Assembly: GCF_000381745.1 (NCBI RefSeq)
Contig: NZ_KB907012.1
Span: 1-39,829 of the forward strand
Direction: 5' to 3'
Length of the DNA stretch: 39,829 bases
DNA from: Psychromonas ossibalaenae ATCC BAA-1528
GTDB lineage: Bacteria > Pseudomonadota > Gammaproteobacteria > Enterobacterales > Psychromonadaceae
The position numbers were made by a program, and so were the translations under genes. Positions 26,425-39,829 of the stretch are shown here, piece after piece (positions within the stretch are counted from its first letter, which is position 1; the number at the start of each line of letters is the position of its first letter). Under the pieces are notes generated by a model, which had not been told where the DNA came from, made no database searches, and saw nothing but the letters and a program-made list of their open reading frames with translations.

Positions 26425-27636
26425 ATGAAAACTAAAACACCAAATTCCCCGGCTTTTCCTGTTTATATTCACGCCTGTGCGATGAATTCTGCATTAGGTG
26501 ATACGCAGCAGGAAAGCATAAAACGTTTGGCCCTGGGGTTTTCACCTGATATGTGCCTAGAGTCCGGCTGGTTAAACGACGGCGGTAAGACAGTTGTCGG
26601 TAAGGTAGTGAGCCCGTTACCGGAGATTGATGTCGATTTAACAGATAAAAATACACGTAATAACCGTCTGGCATTATCTGCTCTGGTGCAGATTAAACCT
26701 CAGATAGAGCAGGCAGTCAGTCAGTATGGCGCTGAGCGTATTGCGGTTATTGTTGGTACCAGTACTTCCGGTATTGCAGATGGTGAAACCGCACTGGCTG
26801 AAAAACAGAAAACCGGTCAGTTACCCGAGGGTTATCACTACCATCAGCAGGAAGTCGGTAATCTGGGCGAGTTTGTCGCTGATTATTTCAAGATAGATGG
26901 TCCGGTTTATACGATTTCTACTGCGTGTTCATCAAGCGGCCGGGTATTTTTATCGGCAAAGCGCTTATTAAAAGCGGGAATAGTTGATGCAGTCCTTGTC
27001 GGCGGCAGTGACTCTTTGTGTAAACTGACGCTGAATGGATTTCATGGTTTAGAAGCTCTCTCCAATGAACTCTGCAGTCCGTTTAGTAAAAACCGTCACG
27101 GTATCAATATTGGTGAGGCTGCCGCATTTATGCTGCTGTCCCGAGAAAAAAACAGCAGCGGCTTAGCCTTACTGGGCGCTGGAGACAGTTCTGATGCTCA
27201 CCATATTTCAGCACCTCATCCGGAAGGAAAAGGGGCGGCTGAAGCGATGCACAAAGCATTAAATGATGCGCAGCTGAGAACAGATCAGATCGGTTATATT
27301 AATGCACATGGCACAGCAACTAAGCTTAATGATGCAATGGAAGCAAAGGCCATTTATGCCCTCTTCTCAGACAAGGTGGCTGTGAGCTCAACGAAACCAT
27401 TAACCGGACATGCACTGGGGGCCGCCAGTATTTTAGAGGCTGCACTGTGCTGGTTACTTTTAGAAGAAAATCTTGATCTGCCGGTACAAATTAATGACGG
27501 AGTTTATGATCCCTCTCTTGCTCCGATACGTTTTGTGCAGGATAAAGAAAAGTTACAAAAGCGGGCTGTCTTAAGCAACTCATTTGCATTCGGCGGCAAT
27601 AATATAAGCCTGATCTTTGGATATGCAGATGAGTAA
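26425..27636 (+). CDS. apeO: ApeO-like 3-ketoacyl-ACP synthase
   Basis: A 403-residue FabF-type ketosynthase with a complete active site: Cys168 in STACSSSG, His295 in NAHGTAT, His329 in LTGHALGA, and the final glycine motif SNSFAFGGNN. In characterised systems ApeO condenses the chain with its partner ApeC. It starts 8 bp after apeN. Its C-terminal SLIFGYADE and stop region have been copied several times downstream (see the 103-bp repeat array), which separates it from apeP by 377 bp. Confidence 0.9.
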   Translation: MKTKTPNSPAFPVYIHACAMNSALGDTQQESIKRLALGFSPDMCLESGWLNDGGKTVVGKVVSPLPEIDVDLTDKNTRNNRLALSALVQIKPQIEQAVSQYGAERIAVIVGTSTSGIADGETALAEKQKTGQLPEGYHYHQQEVGNLGEFVADYFKIDGPVYTISTACSSSGRVFLSAKRLLKAGIVDAVLVGGSDSLCKLTLNGFHGLEALSNELCSPFSKNRHGINIGEAAAFMLLSREKNSSGLALLGAGDSSDAHHISAPHPEGKGAAEAMHKALNDAQLRTDQIGYINAHGTATKLNDAMEAKAIYALFSDKVAVSSTKPLTGHALGAASILEAALCWLLLEENLDLPVQINDGVYDPSLAPIRFVQDKEKLQKRAVLSNSFAFGGNNISLIFGYADE

Positions 27637-27739
27637 AGTGATATGCACTGTTTCTTTTGCAAATAAGATATTTGCATTCGGCTGCTGTTTAAAGCAACTA
27701 AAGAATATAAGCCTGATTTTTGGTTATGCAGATGAATAA
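27629..27739 (+). CDS. Mini-ORF 1 of the repeat array (36 aa)
   Basis: Open frame of 36 codons starting inside the apeO stop (ATGAGTAA). It begins MSKVICTVSFANK and ends IFAFGCCLKQLKNISLIFGY followed by ADE. The tail from FAFG onward copies the ApeO end, with five extra residues between FAFG and NISLIFGYADE. No strong ribosome site is visible, so translation would depend on coupling to apeO. Expression is unproven; it may be only a duplication relic. Confidence 0.4.
   Translation: MSKVICTVSFANKIFAFGCCLKQLKNISLIFGYADE
27658..27676. repeat. Palindrome in repeat unit 1
   Basis: TGCAAATA-AGA-TATTTGCA: perfect 8-bp arms and a 3-nt loop. In RNA it forms a short hairpin closed by an A-U pair. Confidence 0.65.
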
Positions 27740-27842
27740 AATTATAAGTGCCTGTACTTTTGCAAATGAGTCATTTGCATTCGGCGGCAGCTGTTTAAAA
27801 GAAATGAATATAAGCCTGATCTTCGGTTACGTAGATGAATAA
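27732..27842 (+). CDS. Mini-ORF 2 of the repeat array (36 aa)
   Basis: Begins MNKIISACTFANES and ends FAFGGSCLKEMNISLIFGYV followed by DE. It overlaps the stop of mini-ORF 1 by 8 bases (ATGAATAA). In its SLIFGY codons the differences from mini-ORF 3 are all silent (ATC/ATT, TTC/TTT, TAC/TAT). It is the copy closest to apeO around FAFGG. Translation is unproven. Confidence 0.4.
   Translation: MNKIISACTFANESFAFGGSCLKEMNISLIFGYVDE
27761..27779. repeat. Palindrome in repeat unit 2
   Basis: TGCAAATGA-G-TCATTTGCA: perfect 9-bp arms. The pair equivalent to A-U in unit 1 is G-C here. Confidence 0.65.
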
Positions 27843-27945
27843 AATTATAAGCAGCGGTTATTCTGCAAATGAGATATTTGCATTCGGCTGCTGTTTAAAA
27901 CAACTAAAGAATATAAGCCTGATTTTTGGTTATGCAGATGAATAA
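27835..27945 (+). CDS. Mini-ORF 3 of the repeat array (36 aa)
   Basis: Begins MNKIISSGYSANE and ends IFAFGCCLKQLKNISLIFGY followed by ADE. The last 64 bases are almost identical to unit 1. It overlaps the stop of mini-ORF 2 by ATGAATAA. Translation is unproven. Confidence 0.4.
   Translation: MNKIISSGYSANEIFAFGCCLKQLKNISLIFGYADE
27864..27882. repeat. Palindrome in repeat unit 3
   Basis: TGCAAATG-AGA-TATTTGCA: seven perfect pairs plus a G-U at the closing position, intermediate between units 1 and 2. Confidence 0.6.
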
Positions 27946-28021
27946 AATGATAAGAACTGCTTCTTTATTAAATTTAAAAGAAATATATACAAGCCTGATA
28001 TTTGGATGCACAGATGAATAA
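27938..28021 (+). CDS. Mini-ORF 4 of the repeat array (27 aa), coupled to apeP
   Basis: Begins MNKMIRTASLLNLKEIY and ends TSLIFGCTDE. It is 9 codons shorter than the others and has lost the FAFG part and the palindrome, but keeps the frame. Its TAA overlaps the apeP ATG in the same ATGAATAA arrangement (28014-28021). Confidence 0.35.
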   Translation: MNKMIRTASLLNLKEIYTSLIFGCTDE

Positions 28022-28481
28022 TATCCCCGACGCGGCCTCTTTACTGCCGCATGAAGCCCCGATGATCCTGATCGATAAACTCATCAATGTCACTGAATTA
28101 ACGGTACATTGCCAGGTTAAGATTGATTCGGACTGCCTGTTCTTTGATAAAGAGAATAATGGAGTGCCGGCATGGGTAGGCATTGAGTTTATGGCGCAGA
28201 CTATTGCCGTCTGGTCTGGATATCAAGCCTGGAGGCAGGATAAACCTTCACCAATCGGTTTTTTATTGGGCAGTCGTTCTTATACAAGTGAATGTGAAAT
28301 CTATAGAGAATCACAACTACTTGATATCTATGCGGAACAGGTGATGGAAAGTGAAGGTATGGCGGCTTTTCTGTGCCGCATTGAGTGCGATGGTATCGAG
28401 CTTGCCGCAGGGCAGTTAAATGCCTTTGTACCGACACCGGAAAAATTAGAAGAGATGTTAAAAGGGAAAGGTAATGACTAG
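28014..28481 (+). CDS. apeP: ApeP-like dehydratase (hotdog, COG4706 type)
   Basis: A 155-residue hotdog protein beginning MNNIPDAASLLPHEAPMILI, with the conserved His13 of the ApeP family, and WVGIEFMAQTIAVWSGYQA in the central helix. It is the second dehydratase of the pathway, partner of ApeI. A TTG at 28002 extends the frame, but those codons belong to the last repeat unit; the ATG at 28014, overlapping the preceding stop, is the real start. It overlaps apeQ by 8 bp (ATGACTAG). Confidence 0.87.
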   Translation: MNNIPDAASLLPHEAPMILIDKLINVTELTVHCQVKIDSDCLFFDKENNGVPAWVGIEFMAQTIAVWSGYQAWRQDKPSPIGFLLGSRSYTSECEIYRESQLLDIYAEQVMESEGMAAFLCRIECDGIELAAGQLNAFVPTPEKLEEMLKGKGND

Positions 28482-33514: not shown

Positions 33515-36500
33515 TTAGAAAGAGAAATATCCGGTCGAGGATGCTTCACCACTTGCTGGGGTGGTGAAGCTATTGTTACCGCCACCCGACCATTGAGCAT
33601 CACCGCCGGCTTTTTTAATACATTTCCATTCAACTACCGTATTCACAGGTATATCAACCTTACCGACCCAGTTAGGATAGGGGCTAGTCGACAAAGCCAC
33701 TGCATCATCTGCTGTCCAACCACCTAGCTCTGAAACGCTGCCTACTGCATAAACACTTTGTCCATCGTAAGTAGTTACATTTTCACAGGTCAAGGTTACT
33801 GATACAGTCGTCGGCGCATCTGGATCCGGTTCCGGCTTGACGTGACCGCCCACCCAGACGGAAACGCTGCCGCCCTTGACCTTGAAGGCAGCGCTGCCCT
33901 CGGCATCTGTACATACGGTGTCGTCAGCGTCATGATTGCCGGTGATATCGACAAAACATTCATCCGCATTCTCTGCGCCCATTGCCATCACTTTAGTGCC
34001 GCCGGCCGCATCGCTCATCAGCACCGCTAGGCCCTGAAGATGCTCAGTATTGCCTTGACGGGTCCAGCCGATCACATCCTTGTTATCCAGGTAACTGTTC
34101 TGTTTGCCGTAAGCATAATCACGACGTGCAGCCAGTAACTTATCCAGGACTGCTTTATGACTGTTCATATTGATGGTGTGATCATTCCCGTCTTTGCCTT
34201 TATCGGTATAGTCGGCACCGTAGTAATCCGCATAGAAAATATTCGGGTAACCTTCCTGACGTAACAAGATAAACGCGTAGGCCAGCGGTTTAAACCAGTC
34301 TTCTACCGGAGACTCCAGCGCCTGCAGCGACTGCGTATCATGGTTCTCAACCAGGGTCACTGCATGAGCCGGATTTGACTGCATCAATGTGCCGTTCATT
34401 ATGCCGCCCATATCATACCCCCCCCCACTCTTAGAAGCTGTATGGAAGTTATAGTGCAGCGGTGCATCAAACAGAGACATGCGGTAACCTGTATCTTTTA
34501 AGTAGCTTTTCAGTTTACCTAAATCAGGATCCCAGTATTCACCGACAGTGAATAAATCTGTATCTGTAGAGCTTTGTACCGAGTCGATCCAGGCTTTGAA
34601 GAACCCTGTTTCTATATGTTTTATTGCATCTAAACGGAAGCCGTCTAGTTCAGCAAAATCTGCATACCATTTACCCCATTTTTTCAACTCTTCAACAACA
34701 TCTGGGTGGCCCATATCTAAATCAGCGCCCATCAAATAGTCATAATTGCCGAATTCGCTGCTTACCTGGCTGTCCCATGATTTACCTGTACCGCGGAATT
34801 TATAGACAGCTTTCTGTTCTGTACGTTGATCCCAGTCTGTACCGTCAAAATGATACCAGCTCCATTTAAAGTCTGAATATTGATCTCCGCGTCCAGGAAA
34901 ATCAAATTTAGTCCAGGCATCAATCTCGAAGTTATCTCCATACTCTGCATTACGGTTGCCGTCTTCCACTTTAACCACTGTAACGACCTCTGTACTATCA
35001 GCCCCCATTTTGTGGTTTAGAACAACATCGGCATAGATTTTAACTCCCGCAGCATGAGCATTCGTGATGGCGGTCAGGTAGGCGTCCTTATCACCATATT
35101 TAGTACGCACGGTTTCCTGCTGGTTAAATTCTCCCAGGTCGTACAGATCATAAATTGAGTAACCTACTCCGAGCTTACCGTCATCACGTTTCATTGCTTT
35201 GTATGCCGGCGGCAGCCAAAGAGCGGTAATACCGGAATCTGCCAGTGCCTGCGCCTGATCCGAGACTTTATTCCAGAGGTTATCCTCCTCGCTGTTATAC
35301 CAGTGAAAGTACTGCATCATCGTTTCGTTAACTGCGCTTCCACTGTTTTCTGATTTCACTGCCAGGATTTTATGCTCAGTATCACTGGCATCCAGCTCAA
35401 AGGTATAAAGCCCGGATTCTGTTACCGTTATTTTTATCTGGGTATCGTAACCGGCATCTGCAAGTGCCAGACCATTTACGGACGCAAACAGATCTCCGTA
35501 CTGCAGTTTGACCGTACTCCAGTCTGCCGATGCTAGTTTGAACTGATACTCTCCTGGGCGAAGATAAACACTGGTGCTGTATTTTCCATCACCGATATAA
35601 GTCATCTGGCTTCCGGCATCCCAGTCTGTTAATGATCCGCGCAGATAAACTGCTTCATCTGCAAACGGCGGTGGTGTTACCGGCTTGGCATCAGGAGCGG
35701 TGATATTCAGCTTGGCGCTGCTAAGATCGCTGAGATTCAACTGGAAGAGATATTCACCTTCCGTCGTCGTTGTAATTTTCAGGTTTCCTGCATCATTTGC
35801 CCATGCCAGAGTGCCGAACACTGCGCTTAAGTTATCTGCATTGTACTGGGGATCCCAGTCGCTGCTGCCTAGCTTAAATGAATGGCTGACACCAGATGTT
35901 AATGCTGCTTTGGCTTCGTATTGTCCCTGTCCTTTGTAGCTGAATTTGAATTTCTCTAAAGTTGGCCAGCCGTCTCCACTAAAGCTGCCGCGCAGGAAGA
36001 TATCTTCGCTAAGAGGACCTACATCCATTCCCGCGCCCTGCTCTGCCGCTGATTGTTTTTTCACAAATACAACAGCCGAAAGCCCTGGAATCAGCAGCTC
36101 GCCGTTTTCAACCCGGGCTGCGGTTAAGCGCGGATCGTTACCGGCGGCTAAAACAGGATGAAGTTCAAAGTCGTCGGCACCGGGAATACTTACTCTCTGT
36201 TCCCAAATACTTGCATTAATAGCAATCGCCATCGCTTGATAAGCAGGATCTAAGTCATCACCAACAGAAACACCGTCATCAATGGTCATAACGATGGTAT
36301 TTTGTTTTCCTGACGGTCCTGCGTTATGGAAACTAACTCTGTCCTTAATCTCTTGTGTGGTGCCTAAATGCAGTAGACCGCTTTGAGAGCGAATTGTCAT
36401 CATCTCTTTGAAACGTTCATTGGTCCAGTTGATATCAGCCGCAGAAGCAACGGTATTTGGATTGGCAATGATGCCTTTAATGGTATCCCAGTTATTGCCG

Positions 36501-39500
36501 TCTTTATCCGTTCTTGGTAAACCAACATTCCAGTTGTTGCTTTGTTTACTGAAATCAACCCGGTTGTACCAGTCTCCGGAATCGTAAGAATCACGTTCCA
36601 TCGACTTAGATCGCAGCAGCTCTGTACCCATATGCAGGAACGGTACACCCTGTCCCAGCATTACCGGTGCTAAGCCGAGAATCTGCATTCTAGCCCGGTC
36701 TGCAGATGATATATCGGCCTGTGCTTTATACTGAATGATATCCCACAGCGTCTGATTATCATGTTTAGAGACATAGTTAACCGCTTCAACCGGATCGGCC
36801 GCGTAACCTGCACCTTTTCCACCGAAGTCATAATCTCTGCCCAGCACCGTTGCACCACTAGTCGTAAGTAACGGGTATTCCTGCAGGTTTCCTGTCATAC
36901 CCAGACGAATTAAATCAATTTTATCGACAGCGCGATCTGCACCATTTGCAAAACCTGGTGCGCTATTCATGGTATCGCTGCTGGCACCGCGCACGGCGTC
37001 CCGCAGTCTGTCGTTATAAGTACCGATTCCAGTAGCAGCCATATTCCATGATGATGCGTTTATTCCTCTCTTATTTTCCTGAACTTCTCCAAAGTCCCAG
37101 CCTTCGCCATAGAACCAGTTATCCTGATCCACTTTCTTCACTTCAACCAGGGCTTTTTCAATGCTTGATTTCATTAAGTGGCCCATTAGATCGAATCGGA
37201 AACCGTCAATTTTGTACTCTTGCGCCCACAGCACTAAGCTGTCCGATACAAGTTTTTCAAACATGCGGTGTTCAGATGCGGTATTGTCGCAGCAGGTAGA
37301 GCTTTCAACGTAACCGTTATCGGGATTACGTCTGTGGTAATAACCTGGTACAACTTTATCTAATACTGAACTGTTGTATAACGCGGAAGAACTCATATGG
37401 TTAAATACAACGTCCTGTACGACTCTGAAGCCCATATCATGAAGAGTTTTAACCATGATACGATATTCTTTGATCCGTACTATGCCTTCGCTTTCCACTG
37501 CATAGCTGCCTTCGGGAGCATTGTAATGGTACGGATCATAACCCCAGTTAAAGCCGTCTAAAGGTCGAATATCAGCCATTAGTGACTGCGCTTCACCTGT
37601 GGCAGGATCTAGACCTTCAAGAATACTTTGAATTGTGCCTGAAGTAGACTTTGAACAAATGGCAGCAGTTGGTTTTAAGCCGTTATCTGCATCACATAAC
37701 TTACTGATATCATCATTTAAATCAATGCGTTTAGCCGGATCTTCAATAACAGATGAAATATCAAATGTCGGTAGAAGGTGAACTGTGGTTAAACCGGCAT
37801 CTTTTAGGTCTTGTAAGTGTTTAACACTGCTTCTCTGATTTTCTGTAAAAGCTAAATATTTACCGTTGTAAGCAGCTGTGCCTTCCTGATCCGAACCGCT
37901 GAAGTCACGTACATGAAGTTCATAGATAATATTATCTTCAGGTTTGTTGATCGCGGGAATAGACTGTTCATCCCAGCCGTCCGGTTTGCTGTCTGCCTGG
38001 CTAAGATCAACCAGCTGCGAGTAACGGCTGTCGGTGCTTAGAGAAACTGAGTATGGGTCGGTGGTCATTACCCATTCAATTTTATTGGTTTTAGGATGGA
38101 ATACCTGTAAGCGGTAACGGTAGAAGCTGCCGGCCAGTGAAGCATCACCAGTATATGACCAGATGCCTGTTACTGGATCTTCTGTCATAGTTAGCGGCGA
38201 CTGTGCAAGCGGAGTTTTATCTGCATCATAAAGATAAAGTTGAACTTGTTTTGCTGTCGGCGCCCATAAGCTGAACTGTGAAGCTCCGCTTTCAATCCAT
38301 GCGCCCATGCGGGCTTCATCTGCATCGTTATCTGCAGCTGTGTAAAGGTCATCGATTACAAACGGGAACTGTACTCTGGTAGCTGCCAGCACTTTGTTTT
38401 CTGCATTAAGTGCAACAGTGATAAGCTGTTTTTTAAGCATTAACTTAGCATCGGCCGCATTTATATCTACAGAATAACGCTTGCGACCGTTAAGATGCGG
38501 GTATAGTCCGTCATTGATCGTTCCATTGTTTGTCAGGCTGATACGTGTAAATTCTTCAGCTTTATTAAGATCGCTAGAGCCGTTGATACTTGCCCATAAT
38601 TCATAATGATCTGCATTACTTGAGTCACTCCAGGCCAGTTTATCAAGCGCTAACCAGTGTGCTGAGACTCCTTCTATAGCAAGCGGCTCTTGTGAAGCTT
38701 CATTGTAATACAGGGCTGATGAGCTGTTAAAAGCGTAAACTGTATTACCCTTCATTAGTTCGATTTTCTGGTCGCCTATTAGAGAGTCCTGGTTCGCTTT
38801 GTGAATTATAAAGTTGACACATTCGCCGTGATTTTCTTTTAAAGCAATACGGAATAAAACACCGTTATTTGTGGTTGTTTCAGTAACCGTGTAAGGAGCA
38901 TCCCATTGTGTTGCTGTTTTCACTGAGTCACATGATTCATTGTTCCATACATGTAAACCCCAGCCATCGTAGTCAGCGTTATCACGTTTATAATAAATGA
39001 GCGCTTCAGTAAACTCAGGTATTTCTACAGTTTCTCCCGCTGGTGTTGAATCAATGCTGTCGGCAATGCCGTCGCCGTCATCATCACTGGATGCGAAGTC
39101 TCCCCAGCCGTCGTTATCTGTGTCACGAGTTTCAAATCTGTCCTGCGGGAAGGCGTCATCTGCATCGACTACACCGTCACCGTCTGAATCCGAAGGTTTA
39201 CTGCTGCTGTTTTTGGAATCAGTACCTAAACGGTTTTCATCTAGATCTGAAAACCCGTCATTATCATCATCAAGATCAGCATTATCACCGGTGCCGTCAT
39301 TATCTGTATCAATGCTTTCAGACGGATCCGCAGGGAATTTATCTGCATCATTGCTAATGCCGTCACCATCAATATCGCTGTCTTCACTGTCTGCAATATG
39401 GTCATTATCTAAATCAGCAGGTTTGTCGGATGCATCTTTAGGGTCAGAATTCAGTCGTTTTTCATCACTGTCACTCCAGCCGTCGTTATCATCGTCAAGG

Positions 39501-39829
39501 TCTGCATTATCGCCTGTACCGTCATTATCAGTATCCATTGTTTCAGACGGATCGGTCGGGAATTTATCAGCATCATTGTTAATGCCGTCACCGTCAATAT
39601 CACTGTCTTCGCTGTCAGCAATATGATCATTATCTAAGTCAGCAGGCCTGCTGTTTTTATCCAGCGGGTTACTGCCAAAACGCACTTCATCAGTATCGCT
39701 CCAGCTGTCATTATCATCATCTAGGTCGGCGTTATTACCTGTACCGTCGCCATCGGTATCGACTGATTCCGTTTTATCTAACGGGAAGGCATCGGCACTG
39801 TCTGCAACGCCATCGCCATCGTTGTCCGT
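33515..39829 (-). CDS. Large amylopullulanase: type I pullulanase fused to an alpha-amylase (5' end outside the window)
   Basis: At least 2104 residues; the frame is open through the right edge, so the apparent start at 39685 (a GTG codon) is not real. In protein order: aspartate-rich thrombospondin type 3 repeats (39040-39829); CBM41 pullulanase domain with YYKRDNADYDGWGLHVW (about 38650-39010); CBM48-like LWAPTAKQVQLYLYD; GH13 pullulanase with DGFNWGYDPYHYN, nucleophile Asp (37190-37192, FRFDLMGHL), acid Glu (37103-37105, YGEGWDF) and HDN Asp (36758-36760). Two similar starch-binding-like domains follow (LRGSFSGDGW; LRGSLTDWD). Then comes a GH13_5-like alpha-amylase with Asp (34628-34630), Glu (34538-34540) and Asp (34339-34341), and a C-terminal CBM20 (33515-33830). 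Both active sites look intact. It cuts alpha-1,6 and alpha-1,4 links, probably outside the cell. Confidence 0.9.
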   Translation of the reverse strand, partial: TDNDGDGVADSADAFPLDKTESVDTDGDGTGNNADLDDDNDSWSDTDEVRFGSNPLDKNSRPADLDNDHIADSEDSDIDGDGINNDADKFPTDPSETMDTDNDGTGDNADLDDDNDGWSDSDEKRLNSDPKDASDKPADLDNDHIADSEDSDIDGDGISNDADKFPADPSESIDTDNDGTGDNADLDDDNDGFSDLDENRLGTDSKNSSSKPSDSDGDGVVDADDAFPQDRFETRDTDNDGWGDFASSDDDGDGIADSIDSTPAGETVEIPEFTEALIYYKRDNADYDGWGLHVWNNESCDSVKTATQWDAPYTVTETTTNNGVLFRIALKENHGECVNFIIHKANQDSLIGDQKIELMKGNTVYAFNSSSALYYNEASQEPLAIEGVSAHWLALDKLAWSDSSNADHYELWASINGSSDLNKAEEFTRISLTNNGTINDGLYPHLNGRKRYSVDINAADAKLMLKKQLITVALNAENKVLAATRVQFPFVIDDLYTAADNDADEARMGAWIESGASQFSLWAPTAKQVQLYLYDADKTPLAQSPLTMTEDPVTGIWSYTGDASLAGSFYRYRLQVFHPKTNKIEWVMTTDPYSVSLSTDSRYSQLVDLSQADSKPDGWDEQSIPAINKPEDNIIYELHVRDFSGSDQEGTAAYNGKYLAFTENQRSSVKHLQDLKDAGLTTVHLLPTFDISSVIEDPAKRIDLNDDISKLCDADNGLKPTAAICSKSTSGTIQSILEGLDPATGEAQSLMADIRPLDGFNWGYDPYHYNAPEGSYAVESEGIVRIKEYRIMVKTLHDMGFRVVQDVVFNHMSSSALYNSSVLDKVVPGYYHRRNPDNGYVESSTCCDNTASEHRMFEKLVSDSLVLWAQEYKIDGFRFDLMGHLMKSSIEKALVEVKKVDQDNWFYGEGWDFGEVQENKRGINASSWNMAATGIGTYNDRLRDAVRGASSDTMNSAPGFANGADRAVDKIDLIRLGMTGNLQEYPLLTTSGATVLGRDYDFGGKGAGYAADPVEAVNYVSKHDNQTLWDIIQYKAQADISSADRARMQILGLAPVMLGQGVPFLHMGTELLRSKSMERDSYDSGDWYNRVDFSKQSNNWNVGLPRTDKDGNNWDTIKGIIANPNTVASAADINWTNERFKEMMTIRSQSGLLHLGTTQEIKDRVSFHNAGPSGKQNTIVMTIDDGVSVGDDLDPAYQAMAIAINASIWEQRVSIPGADDFELHPVLAAGNDPRLTAARVENGELLIPGLSAVVFVKKQSAAEQGAGMDVGPLSEDIFLRGSFSGDGWPTLEKFKFSYKGQGQYEAKAALTSGVSHSFKLGSSDWDPQYNADNLSAVFGTLAWANDAGNLKITTTTEGEYLFQLNLSDLSSAKLNITAPDAKPVTPPPFADEAVYLRGSLTDWDAGSQMTYIGDGKYSTSVYLRPGEYQFKLASADWSTVKLQYGDLFASVNGLALADAGYDTQIKITVTESGLYTFELDASDTEHKILAVKSENSGSAVNETMMQYFHWYNSEEDNLWNKVSDQAQALADSGITALWLPPAYKAMKRDDGKLGVGYSIYDLYDLGEFNQQETVRTKYGDKDAYLTAITNAHAAGVKIYADVVLNHKMGADSTEVVTVVKVEDGNRNAEYGDNFEIDAWTKFDFPGRGDQYSDFKWSWYHFDGTDWDQRTEQKAVYKFRGTGKSWDSQVSSEFGNYDYLMGADLDMGHPDVVEELKKWGKWYADFAELDGFRLDAIKHIETGFFKAWIDSVQSSTDTDLFTVGEYWDPDLGKLKSYLKDTGYRMSLFDAPLHYNFHTASKSGGGYDMGGIMNGTLMQSNPAHAVTLVENHDTQSLQALESPVEDWFKPLAYAFILLRQEGYPNIFYADYYGADYTDKGKDGNDHTINMNSHKAVLDKLLAARRDYAYGKQNSYLDNKDVIGWTRQGNTEHLQGLAVLMSDAAGGTKVMAMGAENADECFVDITGNHDADDTVCTDAEGSAAFKVKGGSVSVWVGGHVKPEPDPDAPTTVSVTLTCENVTTYDGQSVYAVGSVSELGGWTADDAVALSTSPYPNWVGKVDIPVNTVVEWKCIKKAGGDAQWSGGGNNSFTTPASGEASSTGYFSF
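34418..34426 (-). repeat. Homopolymer G9 tract inside the amylase coding sequence
   Basis: Nine C residues on the plus strand (nine G in the sense strand), coding for three glycines within KSGGGYDMGG. Runs of this length are prone to slippage; a one-base change would remove the last amylase strands and CBM20. Confidence 0.85.
39197..39421 (-). repeat. 225-bp coding repeat, copy B (thrombospondin type 3)
   Basis: The same 75-residue unit as copy A with its first 22 residues identical and most changes in the last 20. Exact spacing of 225 bp. It is a coding repeat, not a CRISPR or intergenic element. Confidence 0.8.
39422..39646 (-). repeat. 225-bp coding repeat, copy A (thrombospondin type 3)
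   Basis: Encodes 75 residues starting PADLDNDHIADSEDSDIDGD, with the DxDxDGxxD calcium-loop pattern repeated about six times. Copy B follows directly, and a third, more diverged copy begins upstream in the protein. Confidence 0.8.

Follow-up and report, generated by a model that had tools for sequence, protein, structure and literature searches.

Tandem copies of the apeO 3' end form a chain of overlapping mini-ORFs between apeO and apeP in Psychromonas ossibalaenae

Introduction

Tandem duplication with unequal exchange between the copies is a known kind of process. The locus of Psychromonas ossibalaenae described here resembles its products in having head-to-tail copies, copy numbers of four, two, and two in sibling species, and mosaic tails on the copies. 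It is unlike a plain tandem duplication in that the copied piece carries a stop/start overlap and a coding frame, so that the array reads as a series of linked ORFs.

Termination-reinitiation coupling at overlapping stop and start codons, as presented in the available parts of two articles (PMC6728339, PMC10666635), is like each unit boundary of this array and the usual apeO-apeP junction in relying on a short overlap on the same strand. However, the coupled pairs in those parts run directly from gene to gene, while here four mini-ORFs without apparent product intervene and the chain is broken in relatives. Another likeness is found in the accessible portion of an article on a synthetic ORF for a nonsense peptide, placed just ahead of a gene to increase translation of the latter (PMC13255528), as in both cases a short product-less ORF ends beside a gene start. 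The ORF in that portion is engineered and carries a strong ribosome-binding site inside, whereas the array is natural, repeated, and has at best a GGA triplet before the gene. The excerpted descriptions of quasipalindrome template-switch mutation (PMC7202029, PMC8794818) are also relevant, since a comparison of GCAACTCATTTGC in apeO with GCAAATGAGTCATTTGC in a unit looks as if an inverted arm had been copied from the other arm; unlike in those articles, the template switch suggested here is read from the sequence alone. Chained or repeated coupled mini-ORFs did not appear among the titles or abstract openings of the open-licence papers listed, from which we do not claim their absence from print.

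The window analyzed in this work, i.e., the whole stretch of 39,829 nucleotides of P. ossibalaenae DNA, contains an apeO-like ketosynthase gene and an apeP-like dehydratase gene (Table 1), followed by two genes with matches to ketoreductase and ketosynthase models. This gene order O, P, Q, R and the gene functions agree with the part of the E. coli aryl polyene cluster table that was available to us (PMC8253772), and the name apeO was assigned by its position before apeP together with analogy to this table. Elsewhere in the ape run, ORF coordinates give gaps of no more than 34 bp between genes, which bears out the limit of 35 bp given in the initial annotation, though the ORFs were called mechanically from the first start codon and the gaps may be understated. 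A separate tandem array of ca. 225 bp with 2.2 copies lies at positions 39255-39748 of the window and overlaps the start of a minus-strand ORF (33515-39685; 2056 codons).

Results

Four linked open frames between apeO and apeP

The 377-bp spacer between apeO and apeP of P. ossibalaenae contains four units of 103, 103, 103, and 76 bp, all of which are open (Table 1). Neighbouring units overlap by 8 nt (ATGARTAA), with the ATG of each unit placed five bases before the preceding stop codon, and this same-strand stop/start overlap is present at all five boundaries from apeO through apeP. Each unit terminates with a copy of the tail of ApeO, and the resulting five tail copies are spaced by 103, 103, 103, and 76 bp. 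Tandem Repeats Finder reported a period of 103 with 3.4 copies and a score of 451; together with the ORF coordinates and tail spacings, this agrees with the coordinates, lengths, and frames that the initial annotation had given for a relay of mini-ORFs. That annotation had also pointed to the change of frame at every unit. With an 8-nt overlap the length of any open unit is 3n-8 (i.e., 1 mod 3), and the frame change therefore follows without being a separate surprise.

Table 1. Features of the apeO-apeP region, in positions of the window.
Feature	Position	Strand	Remarks
apeO-like ketosynthase gene, from which the repeated tail derives	26425..27636	+	NCBIfam NF006618 (beta-ketoacyl-ACP synthase), 555 bits vs cut-off 407
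Likely duplication source, last ~100 bp of apeO	27535..27636	+	putative breakpoint, placed from unit-apeO alignments
Unit 1 mini-ORF	27629..27739	+	36 codons
Inverted repeat TGCAAATA-AGA-TATTTGCA, unit 1	27658..27676	+	8-bp stem, matched in 1.3% of 300 shuffles
Unit 2 mini-ORF	27732..27842	+	36 codons
Inverted-repeat counterpart, unit 2	27761-27779	+	8-bp stem, 1.3% of 300 shuffles
Unit 3 mini-ORF	27835..27945	+	36 codons; tail identical to unit 1 tail
Inverted-repeat counterpart, unit 3	27864-27882	+	7 bp, 10% of 300 shuffles
Unit 4 mini-ORF	27938..28021	+	27 codons; stop overlaps apeP start at 28014
GGA, weak Shine-Dalgarno-like site	28004..28006	+	seven bases before apeP ATG; in all 3 array-bearing junctions beside apeP
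apeP-like dehydratase gene	28014..28481	+	start ATGAATAA overlaps unit 4 stop; FabZ-like matches weak, below curated cut-off

Alignment of units 2 and 3 confirmed that their equal length results from a 3-bp gain and a compensating 3-bp loss and that all differences between their SLIFGY codons are silent; the Y is followed by different residues (A/V). Indels seen among the P. ossibalaenae units are all frame-keeping. The genome is a draft of 107 contigs, in which a short repeat could arise from faulty assembly. However, the copies differ at many sites and two other genomes carry arrays at the same place, leaving an assembly artefact with a practically negligible chance.

A search for a second genomic copy gave a 26-base match on another contig (C27), in DNA reading GGCAGCAGCTGTTTAAAAGAAA, and a copy of the array was absent from the 301 bases inspected there. 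Searches of a plasmid collection and of distant DNA gave no match.

Homology of the units to the apeO 3' end

Alignments of the long units to apeO begin 68-85 bases before the gene end and continue to the overlap. Local scores against the apeO 3' end were 61-68 for the three 103-bp units and for unit 1 of P. aquimarina and 50 for unit 1 of the metagenome-assembled genome (MAG) GLG-1, and for each of these five long units none of 300 shuffles aligned as well. For the short last units of the three species, the alignments to apeO are shorter or contain more gaps (0, 2, and 1 of 300 shuffles as good). The spacer of P. ossibalaenae thus holds head-to-tail copies homologous to the end of the adjoining gene, as in a gene 3'-end tandem array.

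A tandem duplication of the apeO-stop/apeP-start junction had been proposed in the initial annotation. Its duplication part stands, with long units that are copies of the apeO 3' end, but homology to the apeP start beyond the 8-nt overlap was not above chance in any of the eight units when alignments were compared with shuffles. An origin of the unit heads from the apeP start had been considered because unit 4 and the second unit of GLG-1 look apeP-like by eye (ASLL, K..AS); it was rejected when no alignment beyond the overlap beat the shuffles.

Two similar words in apeO, GTGCAG(GATAA) at 27535 and ATGCAG(ATGAGTAA) at 27623, lie 88 bp apart, a distance that is also 1 mod 3. These words plausibly formed a slippage pair, and the likely source segment is placed between them.

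Arrays in relatives and decay of the last unit

ApeO was found at E <= 1e-60 in 9 of 24 Psychromonas genomes, and spacer DNA was matched in only 3 of the 24, P. ossibalaenae included; the family-level search covered the same 24 genomes and added nothing. At order level, 138 of 394 genomes had an ApeO match, and loci were taken from the best 30 of these 138, eight of which were already in the set; this control is therefore biased to close relatives. The final set comprised 52 loci, of which 45 are distinct at the apeO-apeP junction. For apeP we used the in-frame ATG nearest to the start estimated by homology, whereas raw tblastn starts would give small positive gaps at a few loci.

With this definition, apeO and apeP overlap directly by 1-11 nt in 42 of the 45 distinct junctions examined. 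The three exceptions all belong to Psychromonas and are the arrays of four units in P. ossibalaenae, two in P. aquimarina ATCC BAA-1526, and two in GLG-1 (85% complete), with spacers of 377 bp, 161 bp, and 171 bp, respectively. ApeO identity to P. ossibalaenae is 96% for P. aquimarina and 84% for GLG-1, while the other six Psychromonas genomes with apeO, at 76% identity or less, have no array. In one of the Psychromonas genomes (G022, locus L015, 1073-2232), the match to the apeO-like gene is split between two frames (residues 11-159 and residues 158-400), so that the gene looks frameshifted, with apeP following after a short overlap.

Unit 1 is open in all three array-bearing species (36 codons in P. 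aquimarina, 35 in GLG-1), but the last unit, next to apeP, is broken in each of the two relatives, with apeP itself intact. The last unit of P. aquimarina is 10 bp shorter than its counterpart, unit 4, and out of frame, reading MNKRALF*; an eight-codon frame, MVFGYTDE, still ends at the apeP overlap and begins with an ATG where the other copies have CTG. The last unit of GLG-1 reads MLNSKFTNSASI* in the junction sequence. Frameshifts and stops in related units, which the initial annotation had named as evidence that would speak against its reading, were thus found for the last unit of both relatives and not for unit 1. Direct overlap of apeO and apeP is the widespread arrangement, but its chained version is not conserved. 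In GLG-1 (L009, reverse strand), the middle of unit 1 appears frame-shifted relative to the apeO-derived codons, and its 35-codon frame is open nonetheless.

A ribosome relay to apeP

If the array had been kept as a chain passing ribosomes, as the initial annotation inferred, ribosomes that end apeO would re-initiate at each ATGARTAA and so reach apeP, holding the proportion of the two proteins despite the insertion. The overlap chain of P. ossibalaenae is indeed perfect, apeO and apeP are usually joined by an overlap, and an open unit 1 in every array-bearing species is what a sequence-blind relay predicts. A tight chain reaches apeP in P. ossibalaenae only, and its shuffled spacers did so in just 1, 1, and 18 of 300 cases with gaps of up to 5, 10, and 20 nt, respectively. 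The chain is hence unlike a shuffled spacer, but shuffling does not provide the right null for coding DNA that has been duplicated. With none of these gap limits does the chain arrive at apeP in P. aquimarina or GLG-1. It does so when gaps of up to 30 nt are allowed, but at this limit 121 and 154 of 300 shuffled spacers, respectively, arrive there as well (55 of 300 for P. ossibalaenae).

Between P. ossibalaenae and P. aquimarina, apeP is constrained (pN 0.034, pS 0.27; apeO pN 0.02, pS 0.29). If its translation is adequate in the relatives, where the gene is intact, the full chain would not be the basis of it. We therefore did not uphold the claim that the chain is kept for passing ribosomes, and a relay under selection appears unlikely to us. 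A hand-over of ribosomes that works without being selected may operate in P. ossibalaenae and is compatible with the duplication. It is likewise rather doubtful, though conceivable, that the insertion of ca. 400 bp is tolerated because the copies carry stop/start overlaps, with a four-step hand-over in which copy number would set the apeP:apeO ratio through stepwise loss.

The distribution of GGA triplets also counts, as a trend, against a selected relay. GGA occurs seven bases before the ATG beside apeP in all three arrays and at two of eight inner boundaries, as counted from the junction sequences (Fisher p = 0.06, a trend only). Within 16 bases before apeP it is present in 24 of the 25 rows at the top of the junction table, but 15 of the 45 junctions (L014 and L046-L059) lack it and have GGT instead. 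Given this absence and the p value, we treat the Shine-Dalgarno argument as weak evidence. L014 and junctions L046-L059, the latter all from another genus of the order, indicate that even a weak Shine-Dalgarno-like triplet can be missing from a presumably coupled apeP start.

Open frames and codon pattern

Of the 300 single substitutions possible in the unit consensus, only 11 introduce a stop. When substitutions were simulated at the observed numbers of changes, units 1 and 3 both remained open in 67-76% of runs and unit 2 in 65%, and the product over units 1-3 was ca. 0.46 at half transitions. Each simulated unit thus stays open in the majority of runs under substitution-only neutrality, which speaks against the need for a selected relay. 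These simulations cover units 1-3 and substitutions only, with changes counted from the consensus, so that age is understated; indels would lower the figures.

The unit bodies, taken as the first 27 alignment columns, differ in six pairwise comparisons with pN of 0.11-0.23, pS of 0.11-0.39, and a replacement/silent ratio of 0.4 to >1, all from small counts. Two of these pairs have a pN of less than half their pS (0.11/0.26 and 0.17/0.39) and one has a pN above its pS (0.19/0.11); the differences are spread over codon positions. The bodies hence do not show the purifying selection on the peptide expected of a small-protein gene. Differences among the tails are nearly all silent (pN 0-0.04). The unit 2 tail shares the four codon variants ATC-TTC-GGT-TAC with the apeO tail of P. 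aquimarina, with differences between the two tails at AGC/AGT and GTA/GCA. Three tail sites, read by eye, show all four pairwise combinations. Exchange with the constrained apeO tail would explain these mosaic silent variants without any selection on a peptide, with recurrent mutation as an alternative.

Small functional peptides, the other role that had been suggested for the mini-ORFs, could account for their open frames and their almost silent tail differences. Tails of this kind are, however, expected from copies of a constrained apeO tail, pN in the bodies is of the order of pS, and the peptide of GLG-1 unit 1 has little in common with the others beyond its tail. We consequently regard this suggestion as very improbable.

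Several observations count against the view that the open frames are a by-product of duplication, i.e., that all four P. ossibalaenae units are open, that their indels keep the frame, that the tails are near-silent, and that two pairs have pN below half of pS. The openness of unit 1 in all three species is a weak point of the same kind, because 35% of 5000 shuffled GLG-1 unit 1 bodies were open as well.

Hairpins in the long units

Small inverted repeats in the long units (Table 1) raise the question of an RNA element, in which a hairpin in each long unit would affect mRNA decay or re-initiation between apeO and apeP; according to the available part of one article, structures after stop codons can damp re-initiation (PMC7518266). 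The stem TGCAAAT(A/G)...(T/C)ATTTGCA is perfect or contains G-U pairs in units 1-3, and one position has changed on both sides between units 1 and 2 (A-T, G-C). However, the unit 2 stem also reads as a template-switch copy of GCAACTCATTTGC in apeO, which would be a mutational route to hairpins. In GLG-1 unit 1, a 7-bp stem of different sequence (CAAAGGC/GCCTTTG) lies close to the corresponding position (4% of shuffles), but the apeO end of GLG-1 carries a 7-bp stem of its own (7% of shuffles), and P. aquimarina has no uninterrupted Watson-Crick stem longer than 4 bp, a length reached in 97% of shuffles, so that a hairpin there needs G-U pairs. The stem regions do not fold unusually well, with energies equalled or bettered by 10-31% of 300 shuffles, and neither does the whole spacer (z = -0.35). 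The spacer had no Rfam match up to E = 1, and no promoters or terminator-like sites were found in it. Altogether, a functional RNA element seems quite improbable.

Discussion

We consider it likely that the array arose by a tandem duplication of the apeO 3' end carrying the stop/start overlap, that this event is common to three sibling species, and that it was followed by expansion in P. ossibalaenae and by exchange and decay in a near-neutral manner. Copy number varies between the species (four, two, and two), the last unit is broken in two of three, and the bodies have pN of the order of pS, all of which is in line with a tandem array of a gene end. The initial annotation had mentioned a neutral recent duplication as its dull alternative. 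A neutral reading does fit best, but the duplication is probably not very recent, given that the two-unit state is apparently common to three species.

The ancestral junction would have been an apeO/apeP overlap of ca. 8 nt (ATGANTAA), as is still the case in most of the relatives examined. In the common ancestor of the three Psychromonas species, the last ~88-103 bp of apeO together with the stop/start overlap may have been duplicated in tandem to give one long and one short unit, and a later insertion of ca. 15 bp in a unit would have taken its length from 88 to 103 bp. Unequal exchange could then have grown the array to four units in P. ossibalaenae, while tails were probably shuffled between apeO and the units. 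Each mini-ORF would be the C-terminal frame of apeO itself with an ATG borrowed from the copied overlap, and its openness would be inherited. Because the copies carry both the stop/start overlap and apeO's frame, linked open frames arise without selection. In the array-bearing species, apeP might be translated from its own start site, by residual re-initiation through the array, or by both.

These observations call for caution in small-ORF annotation, as plain duplication across an overlapping stop and start can mimic a designed chain of small genes. At the same time, the natural series of junctions with zero, two, and four units could be used to measure the effects of distance and hand-over in translational coupling.
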